DNA of 64,000 bases from Mimachlamys varia. Lineage: Eukaryota > Mollusca > Bivalvia > Pectinida > Pectinidae. Within the stretch, counting starts at the first letter, position 1, and each line of letters begins with the position of its first letter. The stretch lies in contig OX392532.1 in NCBI GenBank assembly GCA_947623455.1, positions 24,464,792 through 24,528,791 on the forward strand, given 5' to 3'. The position numbers and the translations under genes were made by a program. The notes beneath the pieces were generated by a model. That model was not told the DNA's origin. It saw only the letters and a program-made list of their open reading frames with translations, and did no database searches. Shown piece after piece: positions 23,948 to 63,275 of the stretch.

Positions 23948-26900
23948 GTAAGACATGTCACCTGTAAAGTTTGACTCGACTTTGGCCGATAATAACAAGA
24001 TCAGAGTTCAATTCCTCCCATTATACCGTTAAACCACAGGGGTTCGTTACAAATGTCTTGACACACACATATACTTTACTGATATGGGTCATAGCACACA
24101 TAAACATGTTCTGATTTGGGTCACGGCACACTGAACATGTAATGTTTACTTGTGATCTGACCCATATTAATATGGGATATGGTCACTTCGGCCCACGGTC
24201 ACTTCGGTCGGGCCGAAGTTACATATTAGGTCACCCCGGCCCATCGTTACATCGGCCCCTATATATAATATATACATTACATGTATTGATATATATCATA
24301 TATAAGTTAAATGTGTTAATTATCAAAGAATATACTATTTTGTACCAAAATAAAGCACATTAGCCGTAATCAGGGACAATTTTGTAATACGAAAATAAGC
24401 TGTAATTACAGACTCGGATAGCAATCTAATTCTGTGCCGTAATTGATGACTGTTGGTTTAGTTGCTCTCGTTCTCGTTAGAAACTTGCATGCCGCTTGAG
24501 GATAACAAATGATAATTATTTATTATGGCCCTGTTGAGAGGGCACTATTGCCTCATAGTATGGTCGAGGGATGGAATAGTGCCTGAGCCGAAGGCGAGGG
24601 CACTATCTTATCACGAGACCATACCATGAGGCAATAGTGCCCTCTCAACAGGGCCATAATGGGTTTAGTACATGTACATCACACTTTAATTTAGATACAT
24701 ATGTATACAGCAACACTCGTTTTATCATGATAGACCATTGCCAGCTTTGAGTCGTTTCCAGAGTCGGCCATTTTCAAGGAGAACAGTAGCACGACGTAAT
24801 AGTGACGTCATTATAGATTCACGTTGAACATCGCGCCAAATACCCTTCATAGTACCCATGTGTGTAGCCAATGGGAAGGCAGTATTCAGTCACGTGATGT
24901 ACTAATAATGTTTATTCTAGCATGTAACATATTAATTAAAACATACTTTGACAATATAACCACTTCTTATATAGAATAAGAGACCAAGATTCACATGTAG
25001 CGGATCTAGACCGGGTCGATCGTCGGCGACCAGATAGCTCAATTGGTTGAGCGTCCGTCTAGAGTTCGGAAGGTCCCGGGTTCGAACCCCGGTCTGGCCG
25101 TGCATTTTCCTCTCCTATTACATTTGGTGCATGTGACCAAACCTTGTTTCAAGTACTGGGTGCATACTTAGCAAGGGGATATATACCCGAACCTGGGTTG
25201 TAAATGGTGATGTCTTCGGGGTCGAAGACTTTGTTAAAGGAGGGAGGAATGTAGCGGATCTAGACCGGGTCAATCGTCGGCGACCAGATAGCTCAATTGG
25301 TTGAGCGTCCGTCTAGAGTTCGGAAGGTCCCGGGTTCGAACCCCGGTCTGGCCATGCATTTTTCCTCTCCTATTACCACATAGGCCGATGTGACTTAATG
25401 GACGAGGTTACCATGGGTCAAGGTGACTCTGGACAAGTTTACCATGGGCTGAGGTGAGCTCTAATTCAATAAGTACTAATATTAATACCCAGCCTCCTAT
25501 GGCTCTGCCCCGGCCGGGTATTAAATCAGTCCTACATGTATGCCTCGTAATGAAGTAAGCCCAGTGTGATTCACACCGGGTTGATTTTTGCATCACCTAT
25601 CGGCCAATTGGTTCTCATAGATAAACGTACTCAAATTATAAACCATTTCTGTCGATCTAATATCAAGTTTACATAACAATGCATAAACAGAAATGAGTAG
25701 CGGCAGCCATGATTATATATAAGACTTCAGTAAATTTCTTGGTTTCTTTTCTGAAGGGTTCCTCTAAAGTTGAGAATGGTTGCGCGCGTACGGACCAATT
25801 AAGAAAGTCGTAGTAAGCTGTAGTAATTCCATATTTGGCCAAGCAGGCCATATAAAAAAAACGAGATTTGAGATTAACATCACACGTGAACTGTCATGGC
25901 GGTAGTTACTTGTGTTTGTCAAGAAGAACATTTCTGGTTCTGCTTATTTCATGATAAAAATATTTTTCATCATGGTAAACACTTGATATTTCAGCAATCC
26001 TGTATTATTTTGACAACATTATGCGTACATGAGGTGGTAATTAAATGAAATCTTACAGATTGAACACTTTTGATTTTGCTCCACTACCAGGTTCTGAGCT
26101 TGAGTTCAAATGTCTATAATGCCTCTTGATCAAAGTTTGAAGGAAGGAGTCGTGTGAGGGGTACAAATGTATATGTGTACATGTTTTATGATCATTTTCT
26201 TCTTTTTTTCTTGTTACAGTTCAGAGAAAATGTCAAAGACATTCTAAAACCTAACCATGATGATTACTACCTGCTCTGCTGGCTCAGAGGTAAAGTATAA
26301 GGAAAGAGAAAGTAGACACAGATGCAGTTCATTTTATGAGTGGTAACCTATACTCATTAACACACATAGACTTACATTTCTTTATTAATTTAGAATCACT
26401 ATATATTTTATTCAGAAATTTCTATTTGGCCCCCTTTGACAGGACATGCTTTAGAATTGTCCGTCAATTTGTAACAAATTATCTGTCGTTTGCCACCAGT
26501 CTGATTATGGAAGAGTGAGTCTGGTTTATTTATTGGATATACGTCAATTGACTTGATCTACAGCATTTAAAAAGTATTTGTAATCCAGCAGATAAAGTTT
26601 GTACAATTTGTAGGCAATTCTGAAGTAAATTTATGATAAATGCCATTGTGTCAAATATAATAAATATCAATATTCAATTGTCTATATTCGGTTTTATTTT
26701 TCAGCAAGGAATTTTGACCTCAAGAAGTCAGAAGAAATGCTTAGAAATGTGAGTTATTACTTATTTATTTGGATTAATTTACTGAAGGTCAGACTTTACA
26801 TTTTTATCCTGGATATAAAAAGCATGGGATAGTTTTGTGCAGCACCATCACTAGTCATTGAGACTTCTTTATTACAGAGATTGCAAACTCGTGCAGATGG

Positions 26901-29900
26901 CAACTCGGATCTCACAAAATATCCATTCATGATCATATTATTTTGGAAGTTCTAAGTATATGTAGATATGCAATGATTCTGGCTATGACAGTTTGGTCTG
27001 AGAGTCACTTTCGAGAACTAGATAGTAATTTTTAGTTCATGTCAAAAGGTACCATGTATCCTATAGAAATATATGGATCATGTTAAGAAGCTGGCTAGGA
27101 ATACTACATGTTTGTTATGGAAAATATCTGATGATGTTTTTTAAATTGTATAATGTCATGAAACTGAGAAAACAAAACAAATTTTCACATCAAATTAAAG
27201 CATTTATCGTAACTCATTTATTCTGAAAACACTGTATTTTGAGATACAGGAAGATATAAGGAAGGTTGTAAGAAATATCATCAAACAATTGATATCTAAA
27301 GGTTTTTTGTTTGTTTAAACAATATTTTATTCAATATTTGAAGAAGTATATACACACAAAGGAGTTTGATCCTTTTTAGTGAGAATCATTAATATTACAG
27401 TCACCATCTTATGCAAATTTTCAGTCATTCAATTTTAACATTGGATATTTTCCGAAATTTGTTTCTCAGTTAATGGATCACTCATAAACGACTTAAAAAT
27501 CTAAAAAATTTGACAAACTCAGGGTTTTCCCTGGGACCCTATAATTTTTGAATTTTAGAGTCCTTGGAGGCAGATCGCATATAATTTAGGGTAAAACTTC
27601 ATCAATTTTGGGAGTCCTTTGGCAATTAAAGAAGTCAAAATGCAGGGTTTTGCAAGTCAAAGAAAATCCTGCCAACTACAGGTTTAATATGATTCAATTT
27701 TTTTGTTTATTTTCAGTGTTTTATAACAGCATAAATATGTTTTGAACTGAGCAGGATTTTTTAATACAACAAATTAAACCATATATCCAGTATTGTGCAG
27801 GTGAAGCATGTCTCACTATAAATCAATATGATGCCAAGTTACAGTGACCAAGCATAAGGCAAAGAGTAAGTTGCCAATCTGTGATAGAAGTCTCTGATGA
27901 AAGACTGTTTCCAACATTCACTCTCCAGCAGAAGCTAGGTTTTGAGACTATAACATATTAGTTTTAAGATATCGTTACTTAAAATACACCTCACAAGTCC
28001 TTTGTTTGGCCTCAGGATGTTAGTTGGAGAAAGAAAATGGGATCAGACACCATATTGGAGAGTTTTGTGATTCCACAAATTGTTGATAAATACCTGACAG
28101 GTGGCAACTGTGGCTTTGACAAAGAAGGGAACCCTATCTGGGTCGACCCATTTGGACGGATTGACATCAAGGGTGAGACAATTTTATATCATAGGTTTTA
28201 TATGAAGTTCAGGGATGTGCAATGTCATTTTAAGAAATACCCTGCAGACAAAATTCACATAAATTCTATGGCCCAAACTGATACTTTTATAGAAAACATT
28301 CAATTTTTTTCTGGCCCTCAACGATCAAGGTTTTTGCTATAAAAACGGTGATTATGACCCGACAACTGTTGAATGGTCACATAATACTCATTGGCTATTG
28401 ACCGGTCACATGATAAACAGGTGTTTAGTACCCGATGACCCTCAGCTAGTCACATGATAAAGCAGTGGTAAACAGTCATGAAATGGAATATTGAAAACTG
28501 CCCTGTCAATTCAATTGTCTTAGGGGTTCTCCAGTTTCCTTACACATTGAAACCTCTAGATGCTATCATCCAAGCCAGAAGACTCAAGAGCAAAGTTCAT
28601 AGAACTTCTTAAGTTTTGTAGTTGTTCTAAAATAAATAAGGTGTGATTAAAGATATAAGATTATAAATTTTACAGGTATCATGCGGTCTGTTAAGAAATC
28701 AGACGTTGTCAAGACACAGATTCATCGCCTGGAAAGACTCCAAGCTGTTCAGATGGAGCAGACACAGAAAGTGAGCTTATAGAAAAAGATCATGTTCTTT
28801 TGTGTCTGTATTGATAAAATGTTTTAGTTCCATTGATTTCCTTTACGTAACCTTTTGAGTAATTCATTTATGTGTAGCTGATTCTATTTCGCTTGGGCAT
28901 TTGTATTGTTACATTTTTGCTCCAACAAAATGAGCTATTTGATCAACATAAATATGCATATGTTCAACCGATGTAAGGGGAGGTAACTTTATAGGACAAA
29001 AATGCAGTGACAGTGCAGTGGGACAGGGATCCTTAAGGGGAGGTAACTGTATATGGAAAAAAACACAGTGCAGTGGGACAGGGATCCTTAAGGGGAGGTA
29101 ACTGTATACGGAAAAAAAACACAGTGCAGTGGGACAGGGATCCTTTATTTTGAAAGATAACATTTAGCATAATTTAAAAGTCATTTTATTGTAAATGTGC
29201 ATCTTCTAAATATTTCAACTGTACAGTCTAATTTGAAAATCTGGATAAGAGCTGCTGGCAACTGGTTCCTTTTGTTTTGATTGACAGGTTGGACGCCGGG
29301 TCGAGGAGTTAATGGTGATCTACGACCTTGAACGTCTCGGGATGAAACATCTATGGAAGCCTGGTGTAGATTTGTTCTGCGAAGTCATCGACATGTTTGA
29401 ATGGCACTATCCAGAAACTCTCAAGCTTGTGTTTGTTATCAATGGTAATATTTCGACCAGTTTCCCTCTGGTCAAGTGAACCCAACTTCAAGTACACATA
29501 TATATAACACACATGAAGGGCTGTGCCAATTAATTTTGTTCTCTTTATCAGTTATTTTTTCATTTATGTCGTTCAAAGGAGCATTATTTTTGTTAAAAGT
29601 CTTTCAAATTTGACCAAATGATCATGGTATGGCATGATCTGTACGTCATAAAGATTTATATTTGCCCAGAGATCTCCTTCCACAGTTTACAATCAATCTC
29701 TTTGAATTTTTGTATATTGAATCACAATGACATGAAGTTGAGGTTTCCTGAACATCTCCTTGATTTGACTTTATTTGGAAGAGTTATTTCCCCTTACTTC
29801 TTTTACAATTTAAATTTAGTCTGGCCATCTCCTCCCATAGTTTTCAAACGATCCCTTCTAAACTTTGTATATTTATTCACAATGACATGAATGTTCAAAC

Positions 29901-32900
29901 ACATGTGAAAGAATTTGTGCTTTTTGCTTATTTTACAGTTTCAATCTTGTCAGGTTATCTGTTCCCACAGTTTTCAACCTATTCCTTTTAAACTTTGTAG
30001 GTTTTAGCTAATTAAGATGATGAAAACTGTGCTTTCTGTTTGACATTGCAATTGATCAAAAACAATATATTTTCAATGTATATGCATTCGGATACAATTA
30101 CATCTTTGACTTTGGCTTGGTACAGATTATATATCCTCACCGCTGGTAGTTTCCACTGCGGGACTCTTGTTCTAGTATTCATGCTTTTACTTTTGCAATA
30201 CCGTATTTCTCCAGCAAAAAGCCCATGCTCGATAATAAGCCCACCACCCACTATTTAATGCACTGGCCGCCTGGGCTTATTGCTGGAGAAATACGGTAGT
30301 GTTTACATGACATTAAGACTGTTTTCAGGTTGTTAATCTACAAACCAACAATGATCCTGACATATTTATGATCCTTCATGTTTTAGCGCCGAGGTTCTTC
30401 CCGATTGCCTACAACTTAATCAAACCATTTCTATCCGAAGCCACAGCAAGTAAAGTTAGAATATATGGTTCAAGTAAGTCAACATCTACAATATCATGTA
30501 TAATTTGTAAATATTTCTGCCCAAGTTTACAGGTGCATTTCTGTTGTTGCTAGGGAAAAGATAAACATGTTTCACTGACATGAACTGAGAAATTCTTACT
30601 TAAAACCTTCATTGTTTAATGAAATGAAATAACGAAAATATTAGTAATCAGTAATGGCTGTGCTCACTCTAGCCATTAGCATTTTCGTTATAAACGAAAT
30701 GAAATGCTTATTTGCTAAAAGAAAATATATGCCTTTAGATACTTTTGATAATGGAATTTGTGTTGAATAAATCATTTTCATAAACATAGACTCCCTATAT
30801 ATTTATAATAAAAATTTATCCAATTCAATTAATGATATGTTAGATACATCGATATCAGAACTTAAATTAACATTAACACTTGAATTTTGACTCTACTAAT
30901 CAGTAAAAGTTGCTAAAGGAAATTCTTATTTGCTAAAAGAGAAAAGTGGTCTGAAGTGACTTTTGCTAAAACATTTTTCAGACTAGAATTAGCACAGAAT
31001 AAAAGACTATTACTTCACTGAGGACTTTTTCACTGCAGAAAAGAAAACTTCTATCACGTCTGTGTAACTACATTTGTTACCTATGTAGGGACTCTGCAAT
31101 AATACTGGGCGAAACTTGCAAAGGAATCACTATGACCCCTGAAAAACGTGAGATGAGTTCTTTCTTGGAGGCGGAGTATGTAATCCTGGAGATCTTTAGC
31201 TCGATAGGCTGAGGGCAAGACTATTCAGGCAGAGGTCCCGGGTTGGACTCCTGACGGAGGCATTGAAAAAGAATGACCTCTGTTGCATCAGTTTCAATCC
31301 TCTTCCCTGAAAAAAAAAGTTGGAGTGCACTTACAATGGCAGTGCACTTATTAGGTAGAATTTGGTAGTAATCAAAAGCGAAGGTAAAATTAACACTGGG
31401 GAATATGGATGTTTTGTTTTGACAGGTAACTATTCCAGTGAACTTCTAAAATACATTGACGCAGACCAGTTACCTGTGGCGTATGGAGGGACCGTGAAAG
31501 ATGAGACAGGAGACCCCCGCTGTGGTGCTATGGTAGGTCTGGGAGTAGCCAGTGGTATCTGTGCCAATATCTGTACTGAAGGATCCCTGTCCCACTGGAC
31601 TATGGTTTCTAGTCCACCTTCGTGTCAGTACAGCTAATTGTTTGTTGTCTGTCAAACTTTTCTTTGCAGGGTTTATTCTTCGGAACTTTATAAACTAAGG
31701 TTGTGATATTTGGCCAGTAGCTACCATGGACAAAGTCCTGTAAAATCTCAAATAAACTTGACACAGTTGTAAGTCACAGTAGTCAAATATGTCAAAAGAA
31801 GGAGATCAAGATATAATTTTAATGAGATTGAAAAAAGAACAATTTTGATCTAATATCAAGGTCATGGGGTTAAAATCTTCCAACAAGTACTTCTCAAAAA
31901 CTGAAAGGCCATGGGTACTGCTATGAGGCAGCACAACATAGCATGCAGGGATAAAGGGCTATCAGGTTTGTACAAAATGAATGACATTGACACACTTTCA
32001 AGGTCACCAGGGTCTAATGTCTTAAAATCTTCAAGACACATTTTCTAGATAACAATCGACCCAGGGTACTGATATTAGGCCTTAGCATGCTTGGAAGGAG
32101 GGCTTCCAAGTTTTGTTTGAATGAATTACCTTGACCCCCTTTCAAGGTCACAGGGGTCATAAAATTATGTTAAAATCTTTCAATAGATTTTTTTGATCTG
32201 GGATACTGATATTTTGCCTGTAGCTGTATTATAGACAGTGTTGCCAACCTCTTAATACAAAATACCAAAAGATGACCTGCAAAATAAGGTTGAAAGGATT
32301 AAATCAAGGGTCATGTACGTAACAACATTTCATCTCATAAATACCAACATTTTTATCCCATTTTAGATATAATTTTTAGTTCACTAGCAAGTGAGCGATT
32401 CAGAACCCAATCCATTGGGCCTCTTGTATTCTTTTCATACTAGAATATTTATGTAAAATACTGACATTTTTGCCTGTACAGATTTGTCAGGGAGGAGATG
32501 TACCTAAGGATTTGTACTCTAAAGTTAGTATCAACTCACTAGACCTAGACAAGTACACAGCCGTGACCATAGGGCGGGGGTCGTCCTTACAAGTAGATAT
32601 CAATGTGACGGAACCAGACAGTGCAATCAGGTAAGAGTGTTCACTTTGTCTCGCCATTACAGAGGCACGGTGGTCTAGTGGTAGGACACCGGACTCGTGA
32701 CCGAAGGGTTGCGAGTTCGAGTCCCGATAACGACACTTGTGTTGTTGCTTGAGCAAGATACTTTACTCTGTTTGTTCCAGTCTACTCAGCTGTAAATGAG
32801 TACATGGTTGGGTAGTGCTAGAGATTGTAGAATGCTAAATGTGAGCGCCAAAATGGCAGCACCTGCTTTATGCTCCCCAGGAAGTTGAGAATGAAATTGG

Positions 32901-35311
32901 CTGGTTGCTAAGGCCCTATAACCATGGATAGTAATTTATAAACCGCTTCGAGACGACCTTTAAGGTCGTAATAAAGCGGTTTATAATATCCTTCAATTAT
33001 TATTATTATTATTATTTATCACCACTTAATGAAGTATCTTTGTGAACTCTTCTTCATGTGTTAACATGTATCTATCCATTACTTTTACCCTTTGCTACCC
33101 CTCTTAACTGAACCATGATCATCACAACTATTGATGGAGGATCATTACATATAGAGGATCTTACACGAGTGTCGATGTAATAGGGAATTTATTTAACATG
33201 TTCAATAATTTAATATGCCACGAGCCTTTAGGTAAGTGGCATATTAAATTATTTAATGAGTTTGATAAATTCCATATTACATTGACACGAGTGTAAGATT
33301 CTATTTATCTCATGACTTACATTTATGAGAAAATACACCAAAATTATCAAATTCAGTCTCTATAAGAAAGGCAAATTTCTTTTTTGATGGTACAAATTTG
33401 TCACAATAATGTTATTACACACATGTGTAATACCATATTTATGACATGGTCATATGACATGACTGAATGAGTCATTTATGTGATAAATATATTTAAGGAT
33501 TAATCTTTTATATTGTTTAGTTTATGAGATCATAAATCCAATGGCTCACAAGGTAAATTGGGTAAACACATCCTTGGATTTATGTTCTCATAAACTTAAC
33601 AAAATCAAAGGTTAATTCTTATATTTACAGTATTTTCTGTAAATGGTTCATAACTGTTTTGTTCAATATAGCCCCATCGGCGGACACAGATTTCATTTCA
33701 AAACTTACCAAACTTATTGTTGTTGACATCATATAAATTTGGCACATTCTCAAGTATAATTATTGGACAATAAATCTAGTTATTGGACAATGGTTATCAG
33801 GTTAATATCAGTGTAGACCAGTACTGTAAATAGATGAAGATGAAAGAGATATTCACTCAATGACAATTACATAAACAAGTTGTCAGTCATTCACCCCTAA
33901 AGACACATTTGAACTCTTCTATTACAAAGGCTGGAAAAGTTCATTATAAAATTTAGGGTGAATGAGTTGCATTATCAAAATTCTGTAAAAAAAACCCAAA
34001 AAAACAATTGTTTTGATGAAAATTCCGAGCTCTAGCTATCAGCAGAGATATTCCCTACCATATGATCTGAAGTCTGTGATCTTACATATAAACATCTCTA
34101 TATTTCCAGGTGGCAGTTCATCACCGAGGGATACGACCTTGGGTTTGGGGTGTACAAGCGTACCAAGGACAGTAGACAGAAGGCTAATGACATGGAGGAG
34201 GTGATCCCATCGGAACGTGTCAACAGTCACATGTTCCCCGAGGATGGGAGTGTCATTATTAAAGAGGCTGGCACATGTAAGTTCAATTTAATAAATTTCC
34301 TTTCAGCTTTTTTGTAAGAGCATAGCTCTCGACGAAACTCTTTATGGTAACATATGCGGGCTGAGTTGTTTCCCCTTACTACACATTGCCTTTGGTTTTT
34401 TTCATCCAGAAACATGTCACACAATTACATTAAGTCACACAATAATGTTACAGTTGGCCTTCATCGGTTATTTTGGAAGGATGAAAATAAGTGGAAATCT
34501 TTCAGCTGATGTCTGTATTTATCACTTTTTCGTTGCTTCAGATTTTTTTTTTTCCGACTTGCCGACTTAAAATAATGGAAATCTTCCCTCTTTCTGAATC
34601 AACAAATTTCATCATGAATAATTCTCAGTAGATATCACAGATTAACTGTCAGATTATATAAAGCTCTTTTAAGGCTTTGCCTTTTTCATATAATAAAATA
34701 TATCACCCATTGGCAAGCTTTGCTGTTCTTAAACAGCTCTTATTTAGTAACATTGCCTCATTTTGCCCTCAGCAGAATTTCAGGATTGTTTCCTGACCGT
34801 ACCTTATATGTCTGTATTTTTCTAGAGTCATTAAACACTACATTAATAAAGAAAATCATGTGTCTTTAAAACTGTGAAGGTAATATTTCTTTGAGCTTGT
34901 TTTTTTTCACCATTCAATAAAAACAAAATTAAATAACCAACAAGAGCAAAAGAAATTGAATCAAACAAACAAATGGTCTGTTGGTGCATACATGTTAGCC
35001 ATGGGTTCAATTTCCTGATCAGACATTAAAAGGTAAAGAGTTACCTGCCCAACCACATGAATTTTCTCTATGTACTCCAGTTTTCACCTATAGCATCTAG
35101 GCTCATATGTATGCCTTCAAATTATGATATTCAATGCATTCTTGATTACTGGCAAAACTTCAGATTTATAGATATTTCAATTTTACTTTCAGATGTTGTG
35201 AGATTTGACAATACCTACAGTTGGACAAGGAGCAAGAAGATATATTACATTATAGAAATGCTGGAACCAGACACAGAAGATGAGTTTGAGCTGGCTAGTG
35301 AAAGTCCTTAA
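23894..35311 (+). CDS. SEC14L2: SEC14-like protein (gene A), 11 coding exons
   Basis: This is a soluble lipid-binding/transfer protein of the SEC14-like family; vertebrate relatives bind hydrophobic ligands such as tocopherol, squalene or phosphoinositides. The ligand here is unknown. Coding exons: 23894-23947, 26220-26289, 26705-26748, 28016-28172, 28676-28770, 29288-29444, 30387-30473, 31426-31532, 32482-32630, 34110-34276, 35193-35311. All introns are GT-AG, frame is kept at every junction, and the total is 1206 nt (401 aa plus TAA), close to the roughly 400 aa of family members. The protein starts MSGRVGDLS, like vertebrate SEC14L proteins. Residues about 10-60 form the CRAL-TRIO N-terminal helices (FRENVKDIL, SEEMLRN). 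Residues about 75-245 are CRAL-TRIO (GFDKEGNPIWVD, YPETLKLVFVIN, DADQLPVAYGGT). Residues about 260-385 are GOLD (WQFITEGYDLGFGVYKR, RFDNTYSWTRSKKI). Orthology within SEC14L1-6 is not resolved, so the symbol is only a family label. Confidence 0.93.
24521..24660. repeat. Fold-back element in gene A intron 1
   Basis: Arms of about 45 bp, beginning TATTATGGCCCTGTTGAGAG on the left and ending with its reverse complement on the right, enclose about 50 bp. They would form a long hairpin. No coding content; a MITE-like element is the simplest explanation. Confidence 0.8.
25028..25099 (+). other. tRNA-like sequence in left terminal repeat
   Basis: A 72-nt tRNA-like fold with D arm TAGCTCAATTGGTTGAGC (a good A box) and T arm CCGGGTTCGAACCCCGG (a good B box). 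The acceptor arm has one mismatch and the anticodon stem one. The anticodon position reads AGA (Ser), but the long variable arm of tRNA-Ser is missing, so a functional tRNA is unlikely. It is better seen as a Pol III promoter carried by the mobile element. Confidence 0.65.
25282..25353 (+). other. tRNA-like sequence in right terminal repeat
   Basis: Identical over the tRNA-like body to the copy at 25028, 254 bp away, with the same A and B boxes and AGA in the anticodon position. It belongs to the right terminal repeat of the same element. Confidence 0.65.
28968..29146 (+). repeat. Three tandem copies of a ~55-bp unit in gene A intron 5
   Basis: Units share GGGGAGGTAACTGTATA and CAGTGCAGTGGGACAGGGAT. 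The last two are nearly identical and the first is more diverged. Confidence 0.85.
30199..30298. repeat. 100-bp fold-back element in gene A intron 6
   Basis: TACCGTATTTCTCCAGCAA...AAGCCCA on the left is reversed on the right as TGGGCTTATTGCTGGAGAAA then TACGGTA. MITE-like hairpin. Confidence 0.85.
31180..31265 (+). repeat. Degenerate tRNA-like SINE head, gene A intron 7
   Basis: CTTTAGCTCGATAGGCTGAG (A-box-like) and GTCCCGGGTTGGACTCC (B-box-like) are about 35 bp apart. The acceptor and anticodon arms do not fold well. Confidence 0.4.
31801..31832 (+). repeat. Half-arm of the same MITE family in gene A intron 8
   Basis: GGAGATCAAGATATAATTTT followed by AATGAGATTG matches the outer part of the arms at 2574 and 45994. 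No inverted partner lies nearby. Confidence 0.6.
32664..33016 (+). mobile_element. tRNA-derived SINE in gene A intron 9
   Basis: The head has a tRNA-like A box (TGGTCTAGTGGTAGGACACC) and B box (GGGTTGCGAGTTCGAGTCCC). The body contains a block starting ACTTTACTCTGTTTGTTCCA and ending CAGCTGTAAATGAGTA, which resembles a central domain found in several metazoan SINEs. The 3' end is a hairpin (TTTATAAACCGCTT...AAGCGGTTTATAA) followed by an (ATT)n tail. It starts only 34 bp after the donor of gene A exon 9. Confidence 0.8.
33151..33305. repeat. 155-bp fold-back element, gene A intron 9
   Basis: The left arm, AGAGGATCTTACACGAGTGT onwards, is inverted at the right end (GACACGAGTGTAAGATTCT). The arms are about 65 bp and include AATTTAATATGCCAC/GTGGCATATTAAATT at the centre. 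Confidence 0.85.
33493..33620. repeat. 128-bp fold-back element, gene A intron 9
   Basis: TTAAGGATTAATCTTTTATA... is inverted as ...CAAAGGTTAATTCTT, with inner arms ATCATAAATCCA/TGGATTTATG. A second hairpin about 190 bp after the previous one. Confidence 0.75.
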
Positions 35312-47392: not shown

Positions 47393-47509
47393 ATGGGTGA
47401 TCCGGGCATCAAGCAAGATATTAATCCTTCTGGTGTGGAAGTTGTACCGGGTGTTGTGGAAGGGGGGACGAAAACCCTAACTACAGAACAGCAGTCGACA
47501 CTCAGTACG
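47393..47509 (+). CDS. SEC14L2: Gene B first coding exon (39 residues)
   Basis: It begins MGDPGIKQDINPSG and ends ...TTEQQSTLST at a GTAAAG donor in phase 0, the phase needed to join FRNRV of exon 2. The ATG lies 7 nt after a probable splice acceptor (CATTGCAG), so an untranslated exon is expected upstream. The Gly/Val/Thr-rich extension is absent from gene A and has no domain I recognise. Confidence 0.8.
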
Positions 47510-50500
47510 GTAAAGTGTATATTTACATTCATATTCAACATAATTCACTCATGCATGCAGTCACGACTATTTATAGTTTATACTACACGTTTTAATGCCC
47601 CCTCGTTTCAGGCAGCTTTAAATCCAACAATAAAGAGAGTCGTAAATCCTTCGATCGTTCAGCGAAAAATCGATAGTTTTTAACGTTGCTATAACGCGGT
47701 CAATCTACCCACAGCACCTGTTCAACTTAAACGTCGAATGTACTAAATCGGCATGCAGAGTTTTCCTCCTTTAATGATAGGGATTGTTGTATGTCTGCAG
47801 AACGACTTTTCAAGCTACCGAATTGTTTTTCATCGGATATACAAATGTGTTATAGGATTGTATGTTATCTGAGTGCTATTTTGTTGTCAATGGAATAATG
47901 AAAAGTAATGAGATTGTTTAATGGAAAATTATCAAACATTTCTCTAATTCAGCTAGAAATGGAGTCATTCTTAAAACCATTTATTTTAACCTTGGAGTGT
48001 CGGATTTCTCGTTTAAAATAGTTTTTGAATAAACGAGGAACAAATATCAAGTGTTGTGAAAGAAATTTCAATTATATAATTCTTAGACCGAAACATGTTC
48101 ACTCTGACAGGGGAAGCTGACAATATCTAAAAGCAACTAGAAAGATTAAACTTTGCTCCATTTTATCGACTGAATACATCTTTCACCAGACTAAGGTCCC
48201 TTCCTAAACTTTGAATATGTTTTATAAATTATGTGAAATTAGTAACTTCCGTAGTACATTGTTATTTATACTTACATTTCATTTCAAATAGTATTTCTTT
48301 GTATATTACTTTTTAAAGTAATACAGATGCTTTTTTGAAGATGTTTGGGTGAGACAGGGAGAGACAGACAGACGAAGAGGGAGAGAGACAGGGACGGAGA
48401 CGGGGAGAGGAGGCAAACAATTATATAACCGATAAACCGAATAGATAATTTGAGTACATTGTATGCTGTTTTTACTATGCAGAAAGAACATACAGATACT
48501 CAGATTATAAAGGGTCGATATTTGATTATGCTATCAGTTTCTGGTACATAAATAGGCATACACACATATCAAAACCTGGACATATGTGCTTTATGTGAGA
48601 TATTCCATAAAAACAAATACAACAATTGTTTTATAGTAGTTCTTGGAAATGAATTCTTTCACCCATTTAAAGGGTTATAGAGTATAAAGGGTTCGATATC
48701 AAGTAAGGCTAAATAGTGAATTCATTTCACACTTTATTTGAGAGAGATTGACTTTATATGTTATAGTAACTAGGATCTTTATATAATATATTACAAGCTG
48801 TAGACGACGCACTATTACTATTGATAAACTCTTGCTGAAATAGTATTACACTTGTCACACGATCGAAAAGAAAACTCGTGGTGCACTTGTTACAGGATGT
48901 CACACAAGTAGGTTAGCAGGGCCATTAATTGAATCTACAACGATGACACATACAGACACGAGAGTCATTAAGTTAAGTATGCTTGAAAGAGACGATGAAT
49001 AGTGGTAAGAATTAACCGCCATACCAGATATAATCTCTAACCATATAGCACGAACATGCATATAGTGTTATCGAAAGTCATTTAATGGGCTATTCACATT
49101 TGCACAAAATAATTCAAAAATGTTATTAAATAAAACAATACGACTCGTATTACTGCTGACGCCTCCGTGCATTCACGTCCTAATCAGTTATGTTCCGTGT
49201 TCGTTTTTGTTGTCATTATGGACAAAGAATACCCGTACTAACGTACATGTACAGTAATTGGTTAAAAAATACTTGTATTTTATTTCAAGAGTTTCTCTTA
49301 TCTTATTACATTCCTTTTGTAAACGTGATATATGTTATCGTCCACAACTGAAGATAATATACATTGGTTCTTAATTTCCAATAACTATTAAGAAACAAAT
49401 TTTGCATTCGTGTGTATGGAATATCTCCAAAAAATCACACCTTTTGATGCTGATATAAGGCTTTGCATATTACAGAAGAATGATATCGAACCGCTTATAA
49501 TCTGAGTATCTGTACACTCATCTGCATAGTAATAACAGTATACAATGTACTCAAATTATCTACTCGGTTTCTCGGTTATGTAATTGTTTGTCTCCTCTCC
49601 CGTCTCTGTCTCTCTCCCTCTCTGCTCGTGTGTGTGTGTGTGTGTCTGTTTCTTTCTCTCTATCTCCCTTGTCTTACCAAACATCTTCATCTTCGCATCT
49701 GTAGTACTTGTGAGTTTGAAAAACAATGCATAAGGACATATTATTTGGAAGGAAGCGTAACTTTATAGAATATCTATAACACAAAGTTATAAATATTTAT
49801 CAGGAAATCAACTAAACAAGTTATATAAAAGATGACGTAATACACACATATGTTGCATGTTTTAAACATGTTTTATTTTCCAACATTACAAGAAACAGAT
49901 GGAATCAACCACTTGTGTGAGTGGGTATAATAAAATATGTGTGAACATTTAATGAATACTTCCATCAGTTTAATCGATTGATTGATATTATTCACACAGT
50001 TCCGAAACCGAGTTCAGGATGCTATCAAACCTGACCACGACGACAACTTCCTTCTCAGGTGGTTAATAGGTAAGTAACAGGTATATTTACATATTATTGA
50101 ATAATAAATAGAAATGTTTTGAAAGCATTCGGTTTAAGTCATTATTTGACACAATATATGTGGTCATAAGACTTTTGAGATGATCTCATTGTATTTTAAT
50201 CATCACAAATCATTCATCAATCTTTTCACTTTTCAACATTTTAATGAATTTTACATTTTTTATAAAAGCTTTGTTTTATTCACCTTAACAGTTTAAATAC
50301 CACTGGCAGGTCCATTATATAATAATACCATTGATGTAAACAGAAAAATATTTATCAATGATCAATTTTAAATGGATACAAATAATTTGTTCTATTACAG
50401 CAAGAAATTTTGACCTGACAAAGTCAGAGGAGATGTTGAGAAATGTAAGTGTATATAAACATATATACGAACAGTGTATTGTGAGAACTATAAGGACAGA

Positions 50501-53500
50501 ACAAAATGCACGTATCAAGTTATTTCGTTGGTTTCATTTTTCAATTAAAAAAATCAATAGTACCCTGTCGTCTGTAGACTTCTTCAAAGTGGTCAATTGT
50601 ACCGTTTCGCTGTCGCGCAATTATCATAATGCACATTACACGATAAGCTTCTACTTTCACCATGACATAGCCTAAGGGTGCAAATAATGTGATATTCTTA
50701 TGTCACGGACAAGTGAACAATATGTTGACAGTTGACGTTTCGAAAATATACTGTTAACCATGTTTCCTTTCGCGTGCTATTTATTTTCGCGAATTTTGCG
50801 ATGAAAACAATCTTGCATAAGTTATTCGCCGCAAATGATGACGGGGATGACTCATTTTATAAGTTTAAGTGTACTTATAAGTATAATCTGCGTCATGATA
50901 GTCGGTACTTAGACGCAAAGAGACTTGCTTTACAGAATACATATGTATGTAAAAAACGCCACAATTTTTAATTTTTGCAGAGTTTATCTTGGAGGAAGAC
51001 ATATAATGTAGATACAATCCTAGAGGATTTTGAATCTCCAGATGTCGTGAAGAAGTATTTCACTGGCGGGACCAGTGGCTTTGACAAGGAAGGCTGTCCT
51101 ATATGGGTGGACCCGTTAGGTAGATTGGATTTTAAAGGTGCGTATATTATAACGTAATTTAATTGTTCACTATCAGCACAATTTTATATCATAATATCCC
51201 TTTGGTTTTTAAGAATTTGATTCACCAAAAATATAAATTTAACCCATGCATGGATATTTCAAGTTAACATCACTATCTTTTCAACATATGCTATCCCAGA
51301 GTATTTCCTCCCTCGTTTTGAGTCCAGACAGCTGCCAAATGCCAGTTTGTTTTAATAAACCTAGAACATTGATAAGCTTTCTTTACTTAAACAATCAGGG
51401 TAAAGATATATGGTAGTTCAATGTCCTCGTGTATTGTGTAGCCATCTAGTAGGTATGATGACTTTAACGAAGCTGCATAAAACCAAAACATACAAGCTTA
51501 TATGTTAACACGTAGACAATTGATTGGTTGATCAAAAGTAAACGGCATGATGAAATATTTTTATAGCTGGGCTGAGAAAGACTTTGAGATCATTAGAAAA
51601 GAACGATTGTTTTCGCAAAGTATCAAGAATATTGCCGATCTGCAACTGATTTGCCGACGACGTTATCTGATTATCGATGCATGTGCATGATTTTACCATT
51701 TGATATTTCAGGGCTATGTGCATGTGCGAGAAAAATAGATTTGATAAAACATAAAGTTTATCGGCTAGAATTATACACCAACATCATGAAGGAACAATCC
51801 AAAAAGGTATGTGAGTGAGGGGTGAACTAACACATTGACCAATAAGAAGTGAAGGAATATATTTCATATACCTCACTTCCTAAAATGTTGTGACTGATAA
51901 ATGCTTGCTCCAAACATGGCATGATCCAGGATTAGGTGAGATAACAGCCTAATTTCGGCTACTACTTTTTCCTTTAAAATCACGAAAAACAATCATAGAA
52001 TAACGAAGTGTTAAAAACCATAACCCGAACTAAAAATCGATTAAATTAGGGGCGACAAAGGAGGGATTTATACGGAAACCCTTAATGCTGAAGTTCTCAC
52101 TTTTAGGGCGTGGCATTTACTCGGATCTGACCTAGATTTACATGCCAGGGGTTGTCGATGAATCAGAAGACGCTTACTCTTCTGGAACACATGGTGTTAT
52201 TATCTTGAACTTTCGCTGCGTTAATCTTCCCTTTGTTCAAATCCCTACCTAGCGTAATCAATTTTGAGTTCGAAGTATGGTTTTGTTGACGCTTTGGTAT
52301 TCTCTGATCTTTTTACACATGTACCAGCAAGGCTGTATATCTCATTCTCATCTTTAAAGTGTCGGCTTTTCTGACTTTTGAGTGCTACATTACAGGGCTA
52401 ATGGCATCGGTAAAACAATCAGATTTGTTACGTCATAAGTTGTCTGACCTTGAACGATTCTCGAAGGTCATGGCGTGCCAATCACACAAGGTGAGACATA
52501 TTATATGCCGGTTTACTTTGTACAAATATGCTTTTGCATTGGAATATACTCATTGTAGAATGTTATGATATCATGAACATTATACTACTGCACTTAGCCA
52601 AATATCTGGCCTGATAAAAGTATAATATACAGTTATTGTGTTTTCCAACGCCTGCCGAGCTGCTTTTGAGTGTATTTACCCATTATTTTCTCAACAAAGA
52701 TAATTTTGTTTGGATATCATGCTGAGTGCATGGTAAAGTCCCTTGTGCGGAGCCTAACGACTGAACCAGGCTGCGTGTACACGAGAGGCTTAGTATGTAA
52801 GCCCTTTATCTTACTCTGTGTATTCTACTCTTACAACATTGAATGACAAGTTCATCTTCTGACTCAATTGTAGCATCTTATATGTATATGTATTCGTCGT
52901 TCATCTTGGCAATGTATCTCTTTGCAAATGCACAACACTTCTTTAAACTAGCTTTTAAATTTAGTTGTGTTATTCACGTGACATCTGCACGATTTCCGTA
53001 TTGAAATTGTCACGAGATCATGATTTGTTTTGCTGATACATATCTCAACAGGAAATGCATCCCCGATTTACTTATACAAATCAGAGTTCATGCTTATTGA
53101 ACACTCGAACGTTCTTTGTCGCAAGTCCATCTAGATTGAATAATGATGTTATGCTGGGAGTAATTGTGAATCTGTACACAGACCTAAGAACTAAGCTGCA
53201 TGCATATACAATTTGTACTCAAATGGATATGTTTTCTTGAAATAGTTATGTCGGTCAGTATATGTTTGAATCGAATGTCATAATTGTCGAGTCTGCCAAT
53301 TAAGAGACCTAATCGTAATCAAAATACCTATCACTAATTCGTTCCGTACTGCTATGAAATGTATCCGTATGTTTTTTATTCTGTACAATTTGCGTAACTT
53401 TAGTTATTAGTTTTATGCAAAATATATTAGCAAATTCACGACAAACTAGCAGTATTAAAATGGAACTTACATAGATTTACAACTTTCTAATGTCCACATG

Positions 53501-56500
53501 AATATTGTTTGGAAAAAGCATTGCGATATACACAGGCAATATGTCTTTATGTGAAATGTGAAAAATTCACTTTTTCTCCATATTTCACGTGAATTTCACG
53601 AGAAAAAACATTGGCTATGTATGTCGTAATATTGCTGGAGTTAAGAAAGTATTAAGACATATTCCATTTCTAACCATTCAGACAAATGCAAACAATTTCA
53701 AAACCAGAAGTCCAAAAGAAATTAGAACTATTCTTGATGTGTTGCTATACATTCCAATACCGTACATGTGTATCATATTTTACAGCTGGGGAAAGTGATT
53801 GACAAGGAGACTATAATATATGACATGGAGAAGGTTGGAATGAGGCACCTTTGGAAACCCGGAATCGACACATTTAATCAGTTCGTCACACTCGTCGAGG
53901 ACAACTACCCCGAAAGACTCAAGTTTATTTTCATCATCAACGGTAACACTGCAAATCTAGAAACAAAAAACACTGAAAATGTTCTCCTGGAAATTAAATA
54001 AGACAATAAAAATGTCCGAGCATACCGCAGCGTCAACTAAACCAATATCCTTATACCATGGTTTTATGGTCGCCATCTTTATCTCATTGAAAAACATTAT
54101 GTCTCTCTATGTAATATGACGATGTACGTTTTTGTGTATGCTTATTAGTATGCTTACTTGTTCTGATTGACAATGCCTCGGTTCTTATTTCGAGGACTTG
54201 GTGTTTATTTGGATGTGGCCCAGATTTACATGGTGTGTGGTCGTCGATGAAGCAGAAGACACTACTCTTCCGCAACACCTGGTCTTATTCTCATGTACTT
54301 TTACAGGGATCTCCATGTAAATGTTTCCATTTTTCCATATTTTGCCCCTAGTTTAATCGATTTTGAGCTCGGATTATGATTTTGTTAATGCTGCGGTATT
54401 CTCTAACACAATTTCGTCATATAGCCAGGAGGCGACGGTATGCCCATGTTAATCCTGAGACGATAGTGCGGAACTGATGCCGATATATATGATGGGCGAC
54501 AATTGATGTCTATCGTATATATTGAAACGCTTTCCTTTCCTGGCCAACTACTTTTGTGGGTGTCCGTAGTGATTTTCTTAGTGTTTTTTTTCAAATTTAT
54601 AGTTAGTTCTATGTTTTAATTTGATTGCGTTAATAAAATTTAATATTTTTTCTTGTTGAATTATTTGATTTCTGGATGTGTTTGAAAATTTAATTGATAT
54701 TAAAAGTGTAGTATCTGAACAATAAATGTTAATGTTGCTACATCACACATTGTCTCAACAGCTCCGAAGATTTTCCCGGTGATCTGGAAACTAGTACGAC
54801 CGTTTGTGGCTGAGGGAACGAGAAAGAAAATTAAAGTATTTGGTACAAGTAAGTTAATATTTAATTTTCGTTTTATTTGAAATTAATCGGTACAAATCCA
54901 CTGTTATTTTGATTATAAACATTTATTTGAAATACATTGTATTTCTCGCAAACATGGAAATATGTCATTAGAACGAATTCTCTCTACATCGCTGTCTTTG
55001 TTCCCCAAGGTAACTACGCAGACACCCTACTCAAATACATTGACGCTGACCAATTGCCAGCTGCCTACGGGGGTACTCTAGTGGACAAACACGGGGATCC
55101 CAGATGTGGTGAAATGGTAGGTCTTAAGAAGGGAAGGCCACATTATAGATATAAATCGCTAATTACAATATTATATGATAGTAATTGTCTTTACTAGTAA
55201 CAGCAATCTTAACAATTAACTACGAGCCAAATCCCTGATAATTACAAAATGCGTTGAGAAGTATCAACGTAAAATGTAATAAAGCAATTTTATTACAAAT
55301 TGCGTTGTTTTTAATTATTGCGGAGTGACACCGCTCTTTTTCACATCATGGTTCGTCAGATAGACCAATGTGTGATCTCCTGCATTGTTGGGTTTTCTTT
55401 TGTGTTTTATGGTAAGGCACATCAAATAGGTCAAAATTGGCTACAGACCCCCACGCAATGCTTAGAATCAATGTACGTGTATCTTTCTTTCTTTACACGT
55501 TCCTATCGTCTAATGTCTCCTCAGGCACCCCCCTAAAGCAAGGACAGGAAACAATCAACAGTAACAAAGAGGTTGATAAGTTGATGTCCTTGTACTCGCC
55601 TGGGGGTAAAAGATACAATTCTTACGCCCTTCCTGCAGATGATGATTTATAAGCATTTGAAATGTAGGACTGTAATGTTCTTTATTTATACCAGATTGTC
55701 CAAGGTGGAGATGTACCTAAAGAACTATATGCCAATGCTAACGGCCTGGAAAGGGACAAGTTTACCTCGGTAACCGTTAGCAGTAAACAGCTTCTGGACC
55801 TGGAGTATAACGTCACCATTCCGGAAAGTGTGCTTAGGTAGGGGAAGGGATACCTGAAATGGAGTGATAGTATACCGTAAATTAAATCATCTAAATGTTT
55901 ATATCTTTCCAACGTAACGATGCAATAATTACTTACTGTTTACTTACTGTACTGCAACACCCGATAGTCTCCCGGACTAGTGACATTGCCTTGATGTATT
56001 TTCACTCTCCCGGATAATTGCTCTACATTGTCGCAATAAAAAAACTACAGTGTCGCAATAATAGTACTGCAGTGCTAATGAGTGCTAACGTTAATTGTTT
56101 AATATACCGGAGTATGCGACATTAAATAAACATTCTTGTAACAATAAATCAGACCGGGTCCTTTGAGGGGAAGTTCGTTTTTGCTTAGTTTGGGGATAGA
56201 AGTAAAAAATGTTTCCTGGAATATTGCGTCCAACGAAAATATCACAAACGAAACATGTTGACGAAAGTGGGGCTTTTGTATGTTGTAGTTGGCAATTCTT
56301 CACAGAAGGATATGACGTTGGTTTTGCCGTGTACAAACGGATAGAGGACGGATTACAGAAGGGAACCATGGAGGAGATTGTAAAACCGGAGAGGGTTACC
56401 AGCCATATATATCCGGGCGACGGTAGTGTCGTGTGTAAAACTGTCGGCACTTGTAAGTTATTAGGGGTTTCGATTTCATTGCGGATTTTAACTCCAGTTC

Positions 56501-57310
56501 AAAACCGGGGCAATTTTCTTACTGATTTCTGCCATGATAATTCCTGTTGAGTTCAACATTCATATAACCTTTTTGACTTTTTCGCCGAAAATTCAGGTTA
56601 AGGTTTTGGGGTTAGTTTCTTTAAAAGCTAGTCGAGGATTTTGGCAATGACAGTTCTTACTGGATTCAACATGCATTGAATGGCGTCAAATTCGAAATTT
56701 CGCCAAGTTGTCATTTTGTTACTTCCCTTTATTATACGAAAGCTGTATGAGGGGAATAACTCATCTCTGCTCGCATTCCTCCCCACCGCATGTATAGCCT
56801 TGTATACGTCTTGGTTCGCTCTGATTTTATCAACATCTTTGCCGTTCTTTGTGTTGTTATTACAACAAAGCGTAGCTGTCTTTGTTGTTGTTGGAGCTCG
56901 ACGTAAAACATATTTTATTTAAAATTTTACTTTGGGGGATAATTGAATATTTTCATACCTGATTTTTCGAGAAACACCATGCTATTTTCAATTCTGTGTT
57001 CATTTTTAAAGTTCAACAGAACAAATTATTGATTATTTTGAACAAAATAGTATTTATTCATCAGACTTTTGAAACCATGATACACCTTATGTGAAGGTTA
57101 GTAGATGTATGCACGTCTCTGGAAACTATGCCTGTATAACAAAGGGGCATAACTCTGTTTCTTCATTTTCTTTTTTTATAATTTACAGACGTGGTACGAT
57201 TTGACAACACGTACAGTTGGACTCGTAGTAAGAAGATCTTGTACTCGGTTGACGTCATGGCACCAGATAGTATGGACGGCTTCAGTAACGTGGACATATT
57301 CACTAATTAA
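47393..57310 (+). CDS. SEC14L2: SEC14-like protein (gene B), tandem paralogue with duplicated exon 5
   Basis: Second SEC14-like lipid-binding protein, downstream of and parallel to gene A. Coding exons: 47393-47509, 50000-50069, 50401-50444, 50981-51137, then either 51712-51806 (5a) or 52396-52490 (5b), 53786-53942, 54762-54848, 55010-55116, 55695-55837, 56289-56452, 57189-57310. With one exon 5 the total is 1263 nt (420 aa plus TAA). Exons 2, 3, 4, 5, 6, 7 and 8 have exactly the lengths of their gene A counterparts, and all phases agree. CRAL-TRIO_N covers about residues 33-80, CRAL-TRIO about 95-265 (GFDKEGCPIWVD, DADQLPAAYGGT) and GOLD about 285-405 (WQFFTEGYDVGFAVYKR, RFDNTYSWTRSKKI). The amino terminus is 21 residues longer than in gene A and unrelated to it, though it ends in a similar TTEQQSTL stretch. 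Exact paralogue or orthologue class cannot be settled without a tree. Confidence 0.93.
48323..48521 (+). repeat. Left arm of a ~200-bp inverted repeat in gene B intron 1
   Basis: From ACAGATGCTTTTTTGAAGAT through a purine-rich GAGAGACAGACAGACGAAGA tract to CAGATTATAAAGGGTCGATA. The reverse complement lies at 49483-49702, about 960 bp away. Confidence 0.8.
49483..49702 (-). repeat. Right arm of the same inverted repeat
   Basis: Contains ATATCGAACCGCTTATAATC, a pyrimidine-rich tract with a (GT)n insertion (about 49627-49645) and CATCTTCATCTTCGCATCTG. The (GT)n and small indels account for its greater length. Confidence 0.8.
51712..51806 (+). CDS. SEC14L2: Gene B alternative exon 5a
   Basis: A 95-bp exon bounded by an acceptor (TTGATATTTCAG) and a donor (AAG then GTATGT). 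It enters in phase 1 and leaves in phase 0. It encodes 32 residues starting GLCACARKIDLIKHK and ending KEQSKK, and lies at residues 130-161 of gene B, inside CRAL-TRIO. It aligns without gaps to exon 5b (13 of 32 identical by eye) and to gene A exon 5. It is the more diverged of the two, with Cys at positions 3 and 5. Confidence 0.8.
51985..52320 (+). repeat. ~400-bp dispersed repeat, copy 3, between exons 5a and 5b
   Basis: A right-hand half on the + strand (about 52130-52320) faces an inverted, shorter piece (about 51985-52090, which holds AAAAATCGATTAAATTAGGG on the + strand). The two pieces are partly complementary and could pair in pre-mRNA. They fill most of the 589-bp intron between the alternative exons. 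Confidence 0.65.
52396..52490 (+). CDS. SEC14L2: Gene B alternative exon 5b
   Basis: A 95-bp exon with acceptor GCTACATTACAG and donor AAG then GTGAGA, entering in phase 1 and leaving in phase 0. It encodes 32 residues starting GLMASVKQSDLLRHK and ending MACQSHK. It keeps the S-x-K-x-x-D-L-L pattern seen in gene A and vertebrate SEC14L proteins, so it is probably the ancestral version. Joining 5a to 5b would read GGC TAA, an immediate stop. Confidence 0.85.
54005..54402 (+). repeat. ~400-bp dispersed repeat, copy 4 (near full length)
   Basis: Located in gene B intron 6. Its two ends are inverted relative to each other over about 30 bp: left GCATACCGCAGCGTCAACTA, right the reverse complement of GAATACCGCAGCATTAACAA. 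A terminal-inverted-repeat, MITE-type element is therefore likely. Confidence 0.7.
55525..55652 (+). other. Possible cryptic or alternative terminal exon in gene B intron 8
   Basis: After a good acceptor (ATGTCTCCTCAG) one frame stays open for 41 codons (TPLKQGQETINSNKEVDKLM and so on to PADDDL) and ends at TAA, with coding-like composition. The frame fits phase-1 entry, whereas exon 8 ends in phase 0. It would therefore need splicing from exon 7 and would remove the GOLD domain. No poly(A) signal was seen before exon 9. Confidence 0.25.
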
Positions 57311-57935
57311 CTGTGATTTCTGAAAAGTTGATAAACTACACACGAACAGTTTCACATCAGACATTTTGTTATATTGTTACTATGGAATCTCACTGTAAAG
57401 AATACTGTGATCTTGGACGTTTTCGCCTATCTCGTCCTGATGAGAGGTGATTCATAATTAAAGCGAAAACCATTAGATCACTAACAGTTAATAATAGTTA
57501 CCTGTAAAGGCCGAACTCATCACTTGGCAAACATACATTTTATCGGCGAAGAGCGAACATTTGAGTAACGAGAAAGCGAAGCTTCCATACAAAGGCAAAA
57601 AAACCTTTCCGTTTTTTAAAATCATGTCCAGCCCACTGTTTCCTTGGATTTCCTTCATGGTGACCCATTTTGACGTAAAAACTGTCAAATGGACTGGCTT
57701 TGAAGATGTGTGTTCGTGTGTTTCAGCCAAGAGATTTAATATCTATTTCATTCCCTCATCTTCGTCATGACATGGATGTTTAAGATTTGAAGACTATCAG
57801 CGTCGATTGTCTTAGTAAAAGTTTGTGGTATGCATCATTGATGTCTATGGAATGCTAAAGCTGCCTTAAGGTGAAGTATGACAGCAACGTCTTCGCAATG
57901 TTATTGCATCATGTCGACATGTTATTGATTTATAA

Positions 57936-58218
57936 CATGTCGCCATGTTTTAGCATCATGTTGCCATGCTATAGCATCATGTTGCCATGTTATAGCATCA
58001 TGTCGCCATGTTATAGCATCATGTTGCCATGTTACAGCATCATTCCGCCATGTTATACCATCATGTTGCCATGTTATACCAGCATGTTGCCATGTTATAG
58101 CATCATGTTGCCGTGTTATAGCATCATGTCGCCATGTTATAGCATCATGTCGCCATGTTATAGCATCATGTCGCCACGATATCGAATCACGTCGCCATGT
58201 TATACCATCACGACGGCA
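57936..58218 (+). repeat. 21-bp minisatellite in the 3' region of gene B
   Basis: About 13-14 imperfect copies of a 21-bp unit close to CATCATGTTGCCATGTTATA plus G. Because 21 is a multiple of three, one frame stays open across the array and would encode seven-residue repeats such as CYSIMLP. The array lies about 630 bp after the gene B stop, so it is more likely 3' UTR or flank than a separate gene. Confidence 0.85.
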
Positions 58219-60770: not shown

Positions 60771-60842
60771 TCCGATGTGGTCTAGTGGTTAGGATTTCTG
60801 GTTTTCACCCAGACGGCCCGGGTTCAATTCCCGGCATCGGAA
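60771..60842 (+). tRNA. trnE-UUC: tRNA-Glu (UUC), copy 1
   Basis: A 72-nt cloverleaf with acceptor arms TCCGATG and CATCGGA and discriminator A. The D arm contains GTCTAGTGGTTAGGA. The anticodon stem TCTGG/CCAGA closes loop TTTTCAC with anticodon TTC. The T arm is CCGGGTTCAATTCCCGG. A T-rich stretch follows within 10 nt and fits Pol III termination. Copies 2 and 3 are identical over all 72 nt. Confidence 0.97.
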
Positions 60843-61286: not shown

Positions 61287-61358
61287 TCCGATGTGGTCTA
61301 GTGGTTAGGATTTCTGGTTTTCACCCAGACGGCCCGGGTTCAATTCCCGGCATCGGAA
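61287..61358 (+). tRNA. trnE-UUC: tRNA-Glu (UUC), copy 2
   Basis: Identical in sequence to the copy at 60771, with the same arms and anticodon TTC. Flanks are related too: a TTTTGTACAT stretch lies downstream of each copy, so a larger segment was duplicated. It is followed by a T-run suitable for Pol III termination. Confidence 0.97.
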
Positions 61359-62113: not shown

Positions 62114-62185
62114 TCCGATGTGGTCTAGTGGTTAGGATTTCTGGTTTTCACCCAGACGGCCCGGGTTCAATTCCCGGCATCGGAA
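62114..62185 (+). tRNA. trnE-UUC: tRNA-Glu (UUC), copy 3
   Basis: Third identical 72-nt copy. Its upstream flank (TATAATACTGTAACGC... then TGTAAGG) resembles that of copy 2, and TTTGTACATAC follows downstream as in the others. The first T-run after the gene is only TTTT, the minimum for Pol III termination. Confidence 0.96.
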
Positions 62186-63094: not shown

Positions 63095-63275
63095 TTGGTG
63101 GTGCCGTCCATGAGGCAGAAGACATTTACTCTTCCGCAACGCCTGGTCTTATTTTCTTGAACATTTACAAGGGTCTACATGTAAATCTTTCTGTTGTTCA
63201 TATTTTGCCCCTGGTTTAATCGATTTTGATTCCGGATTATGATTTTGTTAACGCTTCGGTATTCTCTAATTACTT
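63095..63275 (+). repeat. ~400-bp dispersed repeat, copy 6 (partial)
   Basis: Right-hand half, containing GAGGCAGAAGAC, CTCTTCCGCAACGCCTGGTC and GTTAACGCTTCGGTATTCTC. A short reading frame over it (62938-63219) shares its carboxyl end with a frame over copy 1, which simply reflects the shared DNA. Confidence 0.7.

Follow-up and report, generated by a model that had tools for sequence, protein, structure and literature searches.

The two homologous exons 5a and 5b of a SEC14-like protein 2 gene of the scallop Mimachlamys varia (gene B) are best explained as a tandem-duplicated, mutually exclusive pair, for which we infer a switch operated by RBFOX proteins and mRNA decay; this reading as a whole is held to be fairly probable. 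Judging from the sequence, the lipid-binding domain of the gene product probably exists in two forms.

Results

The SEC14-Like Genes of the Locus

The window, that is, the whole stretch of 64,000 nucleotides which was analysed, contains two SEC14-like genes (A and B) in tandem on the + strand (table 1). In the protein of gene B, Pfam recognizes CRAL_TRIO at residues 104-264, together with CRAL_TRIO_N and GOLD_2. The whole-protein scores of CRAL_TRIO_N, CRAL_TRIO, and GOLD pass their cut-offs with either isoform of the gene, GOLD_2 reaching 30.3 against a cut-off of 28.4 only over the protein as a whole, none of its stretches passing by itself. Human SEC14L2 (supernatant protein factor, PDB 1OLM and 4OMJ) belongs to the same family, the likeness to gene B being one of protein comparison (372 bits with the 5b isoform). 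The relatives of gene B were drawn from the best 120 of 378 matches. Among the matches listed, the closest is SEC14-like protein 2 isoform X2 of Mizuhopecten yessoensis (P0001, 91% identical), followed by isoform X3 of Mizuhopecten (85%) and the proteins of Pecten maximus (83%), P0004 (80%), and Ylistrum balloti (80%). A gene B-like (P0005) and a gene A-like protein (P0006) of Ylistrum are both encoded on contigs of 614,334 bases, and because of this equal length the two genes are probably linked in Ylistrum as well.

Other features of the locus include a minisatellite within 1 kb of the coding end of each gene, i.e., 13 copies of a 37-nt unit after gene A (36268-36743) and 15 copies of a 21-nt unit after gene B (57893-58210). 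Rfam gave five matches in the window, all of them tRNA: three 72-nt genes in a row with 66.6 bits each (60771-60842, 61287-61358, and 62114-62185) and a pair at 25028-25100 and 25282-25354. The anticodon of the three genes in the row was read by eye as TTC, and they probably specify tRNA-Glu. The dispersed repeat of the 5a-5b intron appears to be MITE-like, and related copies are located at 3388-3593, 14919-15094, 54181-54404, and 63106-63277. Five further open stretches were also compared with Pfam and showed no match.

Table 1. Location of the genes, exons, motifs, and repeat discussed in the text (positions within the window)
Feature	Position	Strand	Remarks
Gene A, upstream tandem paralogue of gene B	26220..35311	+	Exons 2-11; single exon 5 at 28676-28770
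Gene B, coding region	47393..57310	+	Exons 1-4, 5a or 5b, and 6-11; orthologue of SEC14-like protein 2; carries CRAL-TRIO and GOLD domains
Exon 4 of gene B	50981..51137	+	Common upstream exon, phase 1 at its end
Two abutting TGCATG (RBFOX-type)	51678..51689	+	34 and 28 nt upstream of 5a
Exon 5a of gene B	51712..51806	+	Alternative; with the preceding G encodes GLCACARKIDLIKHKVYRLELYTNIMKEQSKK; tblastn, spliced model, profile
Third TGCATG	51719..51724	+	Inside exon 5a (+7)
Dispersed repeat with inverted ends of ~60 nt	51986..52314	+	Within the 5a-5b intron; blastn of the introns against the window
Exon 5b of gene B	52396..52490	+	Type found in 4/5 pectinid-like gene B proteins; spliced model, orthologous proteins
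TGCATG	52727..52732	+	237 nt downstream of 5b, 12 nt upstream of the X3-like segment
Frameshifted stretch, possibly equivalent to the third alternative segment of Mizuhopecten X3	52739..52792	+	54 nt, stop in frame
Exon 6 of gene B	53786..53942	+	Common downstream exon, phase 0 at its start

Anatomy and Reading Frame of the Exon Pair

At 95 nt each, exons 5a and 5b run from phase 1 to phase 0 and are bounded by AG and GT; the coordinates, lengths, phases, and splice ends given for them in an earlier note on this DNA all proved exact when checked again. The two exons are 60% identical in DNA, and their products share 13 of 32 residues (40.6%), with an E-value of 5e-5 in a tblastn search of the 32-aa exon against the window. 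The introns around them have ordinary GT-AG ends. The one separating 5a from 5b is 589 nt long, and steric blocking is limited to introns shorter than this.

According to the spliced model, gene B remains open with 5a alone or with 5b alone, each form having 420 aa. When both exons are included, translation stops after 162 residues (...KKG, stop), and when both are skipped it stops after 134 (...KAGESD, stop). The statement that a full-length protein results only from splicing one exon at a time is thus borne out, as is the statement that gene A has a single version of exon 5. The stops arise from the length of 95 nt, which three does not divide, and they would follow for any duplicated 95-nt exon; frame enforcement is therefore automatic on duplication and by itself no evidence of regulated splicing. 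Consequently, the term "frame-enforced", under which the pair had been described, is correct for the outcome in the reading frame and loses its value as a sign of regulated exclusion, given that every exon of a length not divisible by three would behave alike. An mRNA with a stop well upstream of later exon junctions is a target of nonsense-mediated decay, and the mRNAs with both or neither of the exons, having their stops in such positions, should be targets of this kind. In the available text of PMC6071210, decay of the wrong forms is named as a contributor to exclusive splicing.

Homology of Exon 5a

Exon 5a is a real exon copy, homologous to 5b. The 115 relatives used for a family profile of exon 5 include gene A and leave out P0001-P0005, 5a, 5b, and one gapped row. 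On this profile, exon 5 of gene A scored 56.5 bits (being a member of the profile, it is not independent), 5a 43.1, and 5b 36.0. The window holds, on both strands, 71 open segments of 95 nt flanked by AG and GT, and these three exons were the only ones above zero, the best of the remaining segments scoring -22.8. When all 20,935 open 95-nt segments of the window were scored, the next best after the three reached -0.4. Chance resemblance of 5a to exon 5 was ruled out by this whole-window scan, and no further copy of exon 5 stood above background elsewhere in the window, either by tblastn or by the profile.

The splice sites were compared through a leave-one-out matrix built from genes A and B. 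Exon 5a has the 3rd-ranking acceptor of 21 and the 12th-ranking donor of 20, whereas the acceptor of 5b is weaker (15th of 21) and its donor is placed 2nd of 20; the scores of both exons lie within the range of the other exons of the two genes.

Exon Types in the Orthologous Proteins

Among the matches listed, four out of five pectinid-like gene B proteins (P0001, P0003, P0004, and P0005) are of the 5b type, most of the five being database gene models and P0004 being counted as pectinid-like by resemblance only. The latter (414 residues) derives from contigs of at most 1,601 bases, which are too short for a gene with such introns, and so it probably reflects a transcript. The fifth protein, P0002 (isoform X3 of Mizuhopecten), has at this position an unrelated segment of 18 residues, VPCRKITAESGCVNMGGL. 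Weak tblastn matches to it (E about 1) were found downstream of 5b at 52735-52752 and 52748-52792, in two frames. The corresponding stretch shows one extra base and an in-frame stop, its boundaries and stop being judged by eye, and a third choice of the X3 type is probably non-productive in gene B of the window. The unrelated segment of X3 also indicates that the annotated isoforms at this position may include noise.

No transcript or protein of the 5a type was found among the matches listed (120 of 378) in a database clustered at 90% identity. Since the 5a isoform is ~95% identical to the 5b form, a close 5a isoform can be hidden by clustering at this level; the clusters of P0001, P0003, and P0004 comprise two, four, and four member sequences, respectively. 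A query with the 5a region of the 420-aa isoform gave no candidate sharing three words, though P0001, P0003, P0004, and P0005 share 5, 6, 7, and 10 words of that region, and so this outcome says nothing against a 5a protein. A 90-aa piece gave one candidate and no match in the protein database. On the other hand, the name "isoform X2" carried by the Mizuhopecten and Pecten proteins implies that an X1 exists. The earlier proposal of two isoforms differing within the CRAL-TRIO domain remains the best reading, in which the use of 5b is supported by the orthologous proteins and that of 5a is presumed.

Age of the Duplication and Selection on the Copies

Two near-invariant positions distinguish the copies. 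Position 137 (gene B numbering) is Lys in 112 of the 115 relatives and in 5a; the five 5b-type exons seen (window, P0001, P0003, P0004, and P0005) have Q or H instead. Ser134 is found in 114 of the 115 relatives and in the same five 5b-type exons, and it is replaced by Cys in 5a. As Lys137 is kept in 5a and lost in all five 5b-type exons, the duplication is probably older than Mizuhopecten, Pecten, and Ylistrum. The simplest reading of these sequences would be a duplication before those scallops split, with each copy losing a different near-invariant residue. In the best of six trees, based on 17 hand-picked sequences, 5a is located outside the five 5b exons; the AU test at 0.05 rejects one of the five alternative placements of 5a, and four stay. 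A fuller scenario, in which an exon duplication before the scallop radiation produced two RBFOX-switched versions of the domain (5a having lost Ser134 and 5b Lys137) with different ligand specificity by tissue, can be put forward tentatively.

The comparison of 5a with 5b gave dN 0.57 and dS 0.55, the latter being imprecise as it is drawn from about 20 synonymous sites. The earlier note had proposed dN/dS of each exon as a check; between the copies the ratio is about 1, and purifying selection did not emerge from it. Identity is flat over the three codon positions (0.59/0.62/0.59), and both results argue against ordinary purifying selection between the copies. A ratio of this size speaks for a decaying relic, namely a once-used duplicate which is now rarely or never spliced and stays open by chance. 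The loss of Ser134 points the same way, as does the absence of the 5a type among the visible orthologues (listed matches, 90% clustering), and in a neutral simulation 42% of the runs with 15 changes stay open. Such a relic is nevertheless unlikely, because 5a is as close to the family as 5b, its length is exactly 95 nt, its acceptor is strong, and neutral runs with at least 19 changes seldom keep its profile score.

In detail, for 8 of 11 outgroups the residues in common with 5a but not 5b are more numerous than those in common with 5b but not 5a; the reverse is seen in two (gene A, 4 vs 7; P0018, 3 vs 5), and there is one tie. By this measure, 5a appears no further drifted from the family than 5b. 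The neutral simulation comprised 5,000 runs per step and started from a favourable mosaic ancestor, 18 nt from 5a, with indels and splice sites uncounted. The exon stayed open with a score equal to or above that of 5a in 20%, 4.3%, 1.2%, and 0.1% of the runs at 10, 15, 19, and 25 changes, respectively. From random mosaic ancestors, the respective figure was 0.1% at 15 changes and 0/5,000 at 19, 25, and 30. Both facts, i.e., the ratio of about 1 and the resemblance to the family which 5a has kept, fit a used pair under relaxed or divergent selection better than a decaying 5a.

UGCAUG Motifs and the Proposed Switch

The abutting TGCATG pair upstream of 5a is placed between a branch-point-like CTGAT (-42) and the AG of the acceptor, and together with the copy inside the exon it makes three motifs within 47 nt. 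The + strand of the window has 27 copies of TGCATG. Between exons 4 and 6 there are six, against 1.1 expected, and the remaining 20 acceptors in the two SEC14-like genes have just one copy among them between -300 and +100, located 146 nt upstream of exon 2 of gene B (three of the gene A acceptor positions used in this comparison are up to three bases off). The cluster of three appeared in 0 of 200 simulated windows; for 102 of 4,049 hexamers, some such cluster exists somewhere in the real window. Near the 5a acceptor, TGCATG has a p of 1.3e-5, which loses significance when all 4,096 hexamers are considered, and it is outranked by the overlapping ATGTGC (9.6e-7); over the whole span of exons 4-6 it ranks sixth. 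The cluster was noticed after the fact and may belong to a small repeat, and it is persuasive mainly through its position and through the precedents of egl-15 and FGFR2. For the other regulators, the binding patterns of NOVA, PTB, CELF, QKI, hnRNP A1, hnRNP L, and ESRP showed no clear excess between exons 4 and 6, and an MBNL pattern was present twice against 0.3 expected.

Both precedents concern an upstream UGCAUG. According to the available portions of the sources, RBFOX represses through it exon 5B of egl-15 (PMC3585155) and exon 9 of FGFR2 (PMC2880598); in the latter, the motif lets Fox2 block the 3′ splice site, which causes the switch to the other exon. With a reference on FGFR2, PMC6071210 (in the text available) also names decay of the double-exon forms as contributing to exclusion. 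Exons 8 and 9 of FGFR2 resemble 5a and 5b in being adjacent and exclusive, with UGCAUG upstream of one of them. In contrast to gene B, FGFR2 is a receptor gene whose repressed exon is the downstream one and whose regulators were shown by experiment. The Caenorhabditis elegans exons 5A and 5B differ from the scallop pair in that egl-15 is an unrelated gene, with SUP-12 as a partner, and was tested genetically.

By analogy, repression of 5a by RBFOX combined with decay of the wrong forms would be the preferred switch. Exon 5a would be spliced in some tissue or condition, and RBFOX bound to the UGCAUG copies around its acceptor would repress it, leading to the use of 5b. Any mRNAs with both or neither of the exons would meet early stops and be removed by nonsense-mediated decay. 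RBFOX-rich tissues would then carry 5b and other tissues 5a, and the two isoforms might differ in how they handle their ligands.

The same motifs would suit a switch in which 5a is a poison exon, spliced together with 5b into an early-stop mRNA that lowers the output of the gene and yields no 5a protein, and the stop after 162 residues agrees with it. Conservation of the protein sequence would not be needed in a poison exon, yet 5a retains Lys137 and reaches 43.1 on the family profile, and 5a alone leaves the protein open; this explanation is accordingly considered quite unlikely. It is very improbable that the pair is used and its exclusion depends, instead of on a repressor and decay, on one of the other published routes to exclusive exons (PMC6071210, in its available text), given that the 5a-5b intron is too long for steric crowding, that the ordinary ends of the introns speak against U2/U12 incompatibility, and that for competing intron pairing the best duplexes (-45.4, -52.5, and -51.5 kcal/mol) are beaten by the shuffle minima (-56.1, -55.2, and -57.3), even though the second of these values, for the intron before 5a with the intron after 5b, is better than its shuffle mean of -48.1. 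Competing RNA structure was rejected, since 15 Markov shuffles of each intron pair gave a range that includes these duplexes.

Discussion

Exclusive exon pairs are a well-known arrangement in other genes, as in FGFR2 and egl-15. The arrangement had been presented as new for SEC14-like genes, and this agrees with the literature searched, which was of partial coverage and gave no report of exclusive exons in such genes and no paper on a scallop SEC14-like protein. The available portions of PMC8548661, PMC8641155, PMC12533644, and PMC7385082 describe no exclusive exons in a SEC14-like gene, SEC14 is absent from the main text of a study of human tandem duplicated exons as far as that text was available (PMC9741552), and none of five mechanism terms is present in PMC9013439. 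The novelty does not extend to alternative splicing in general, as splice variants of SEC14L1 (PMC8548661) and a CRAL-TRIO microexon of PRUNE2 (PMC8641155) are already in print, according to the available parts of these papers.

Among bivalves, a similar case of tandem exon duplication is exon 10 of the oyster alternative oxidase (CvAOXA/B). Its copies are 63.5% alike in DNA and the first one is less conserved between species, as given in the available text of PMC5589949. Unlike 5a and 5b, the oyster exon is terminal with its own stop, a long mRNA includes both copies, and expression was measured.

The position of the pair within the protein was examined in the AlphaFold model of P0001 from Mizuhopecten (mean pLDDT 87.0, from an alignment of 45 sequences drawn from the 120 listed proteins). 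There, residues 130-161 span the last part of helix 128-134 and the greater part of helix 137-162. The CRAL-TRIO part of the model superposes on 4omj_A with a TM score of 0.94 by target length and an rmsd of 1.2. This structure is the human supernatant protein factor with bound 2,3-oxidosqualene; background on the ligands of SEC14L2 is found in the available text of PMC4077815.

The two isoforms of gene B differ in 19 of the 32 residues of this module, and the remaining protein is identical. If 5a is used, the pair would be a natural swap experiment, in which a 32-residue helix module is exchanged within one lipid-transfer scaffold, and it would reveal the CRAL-TRIO positions which set the choice of ligand. 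It would also be a molluscan addition to the UGCAUG-controlled exclusive exons of the worm and vertebrate FGF receptors.
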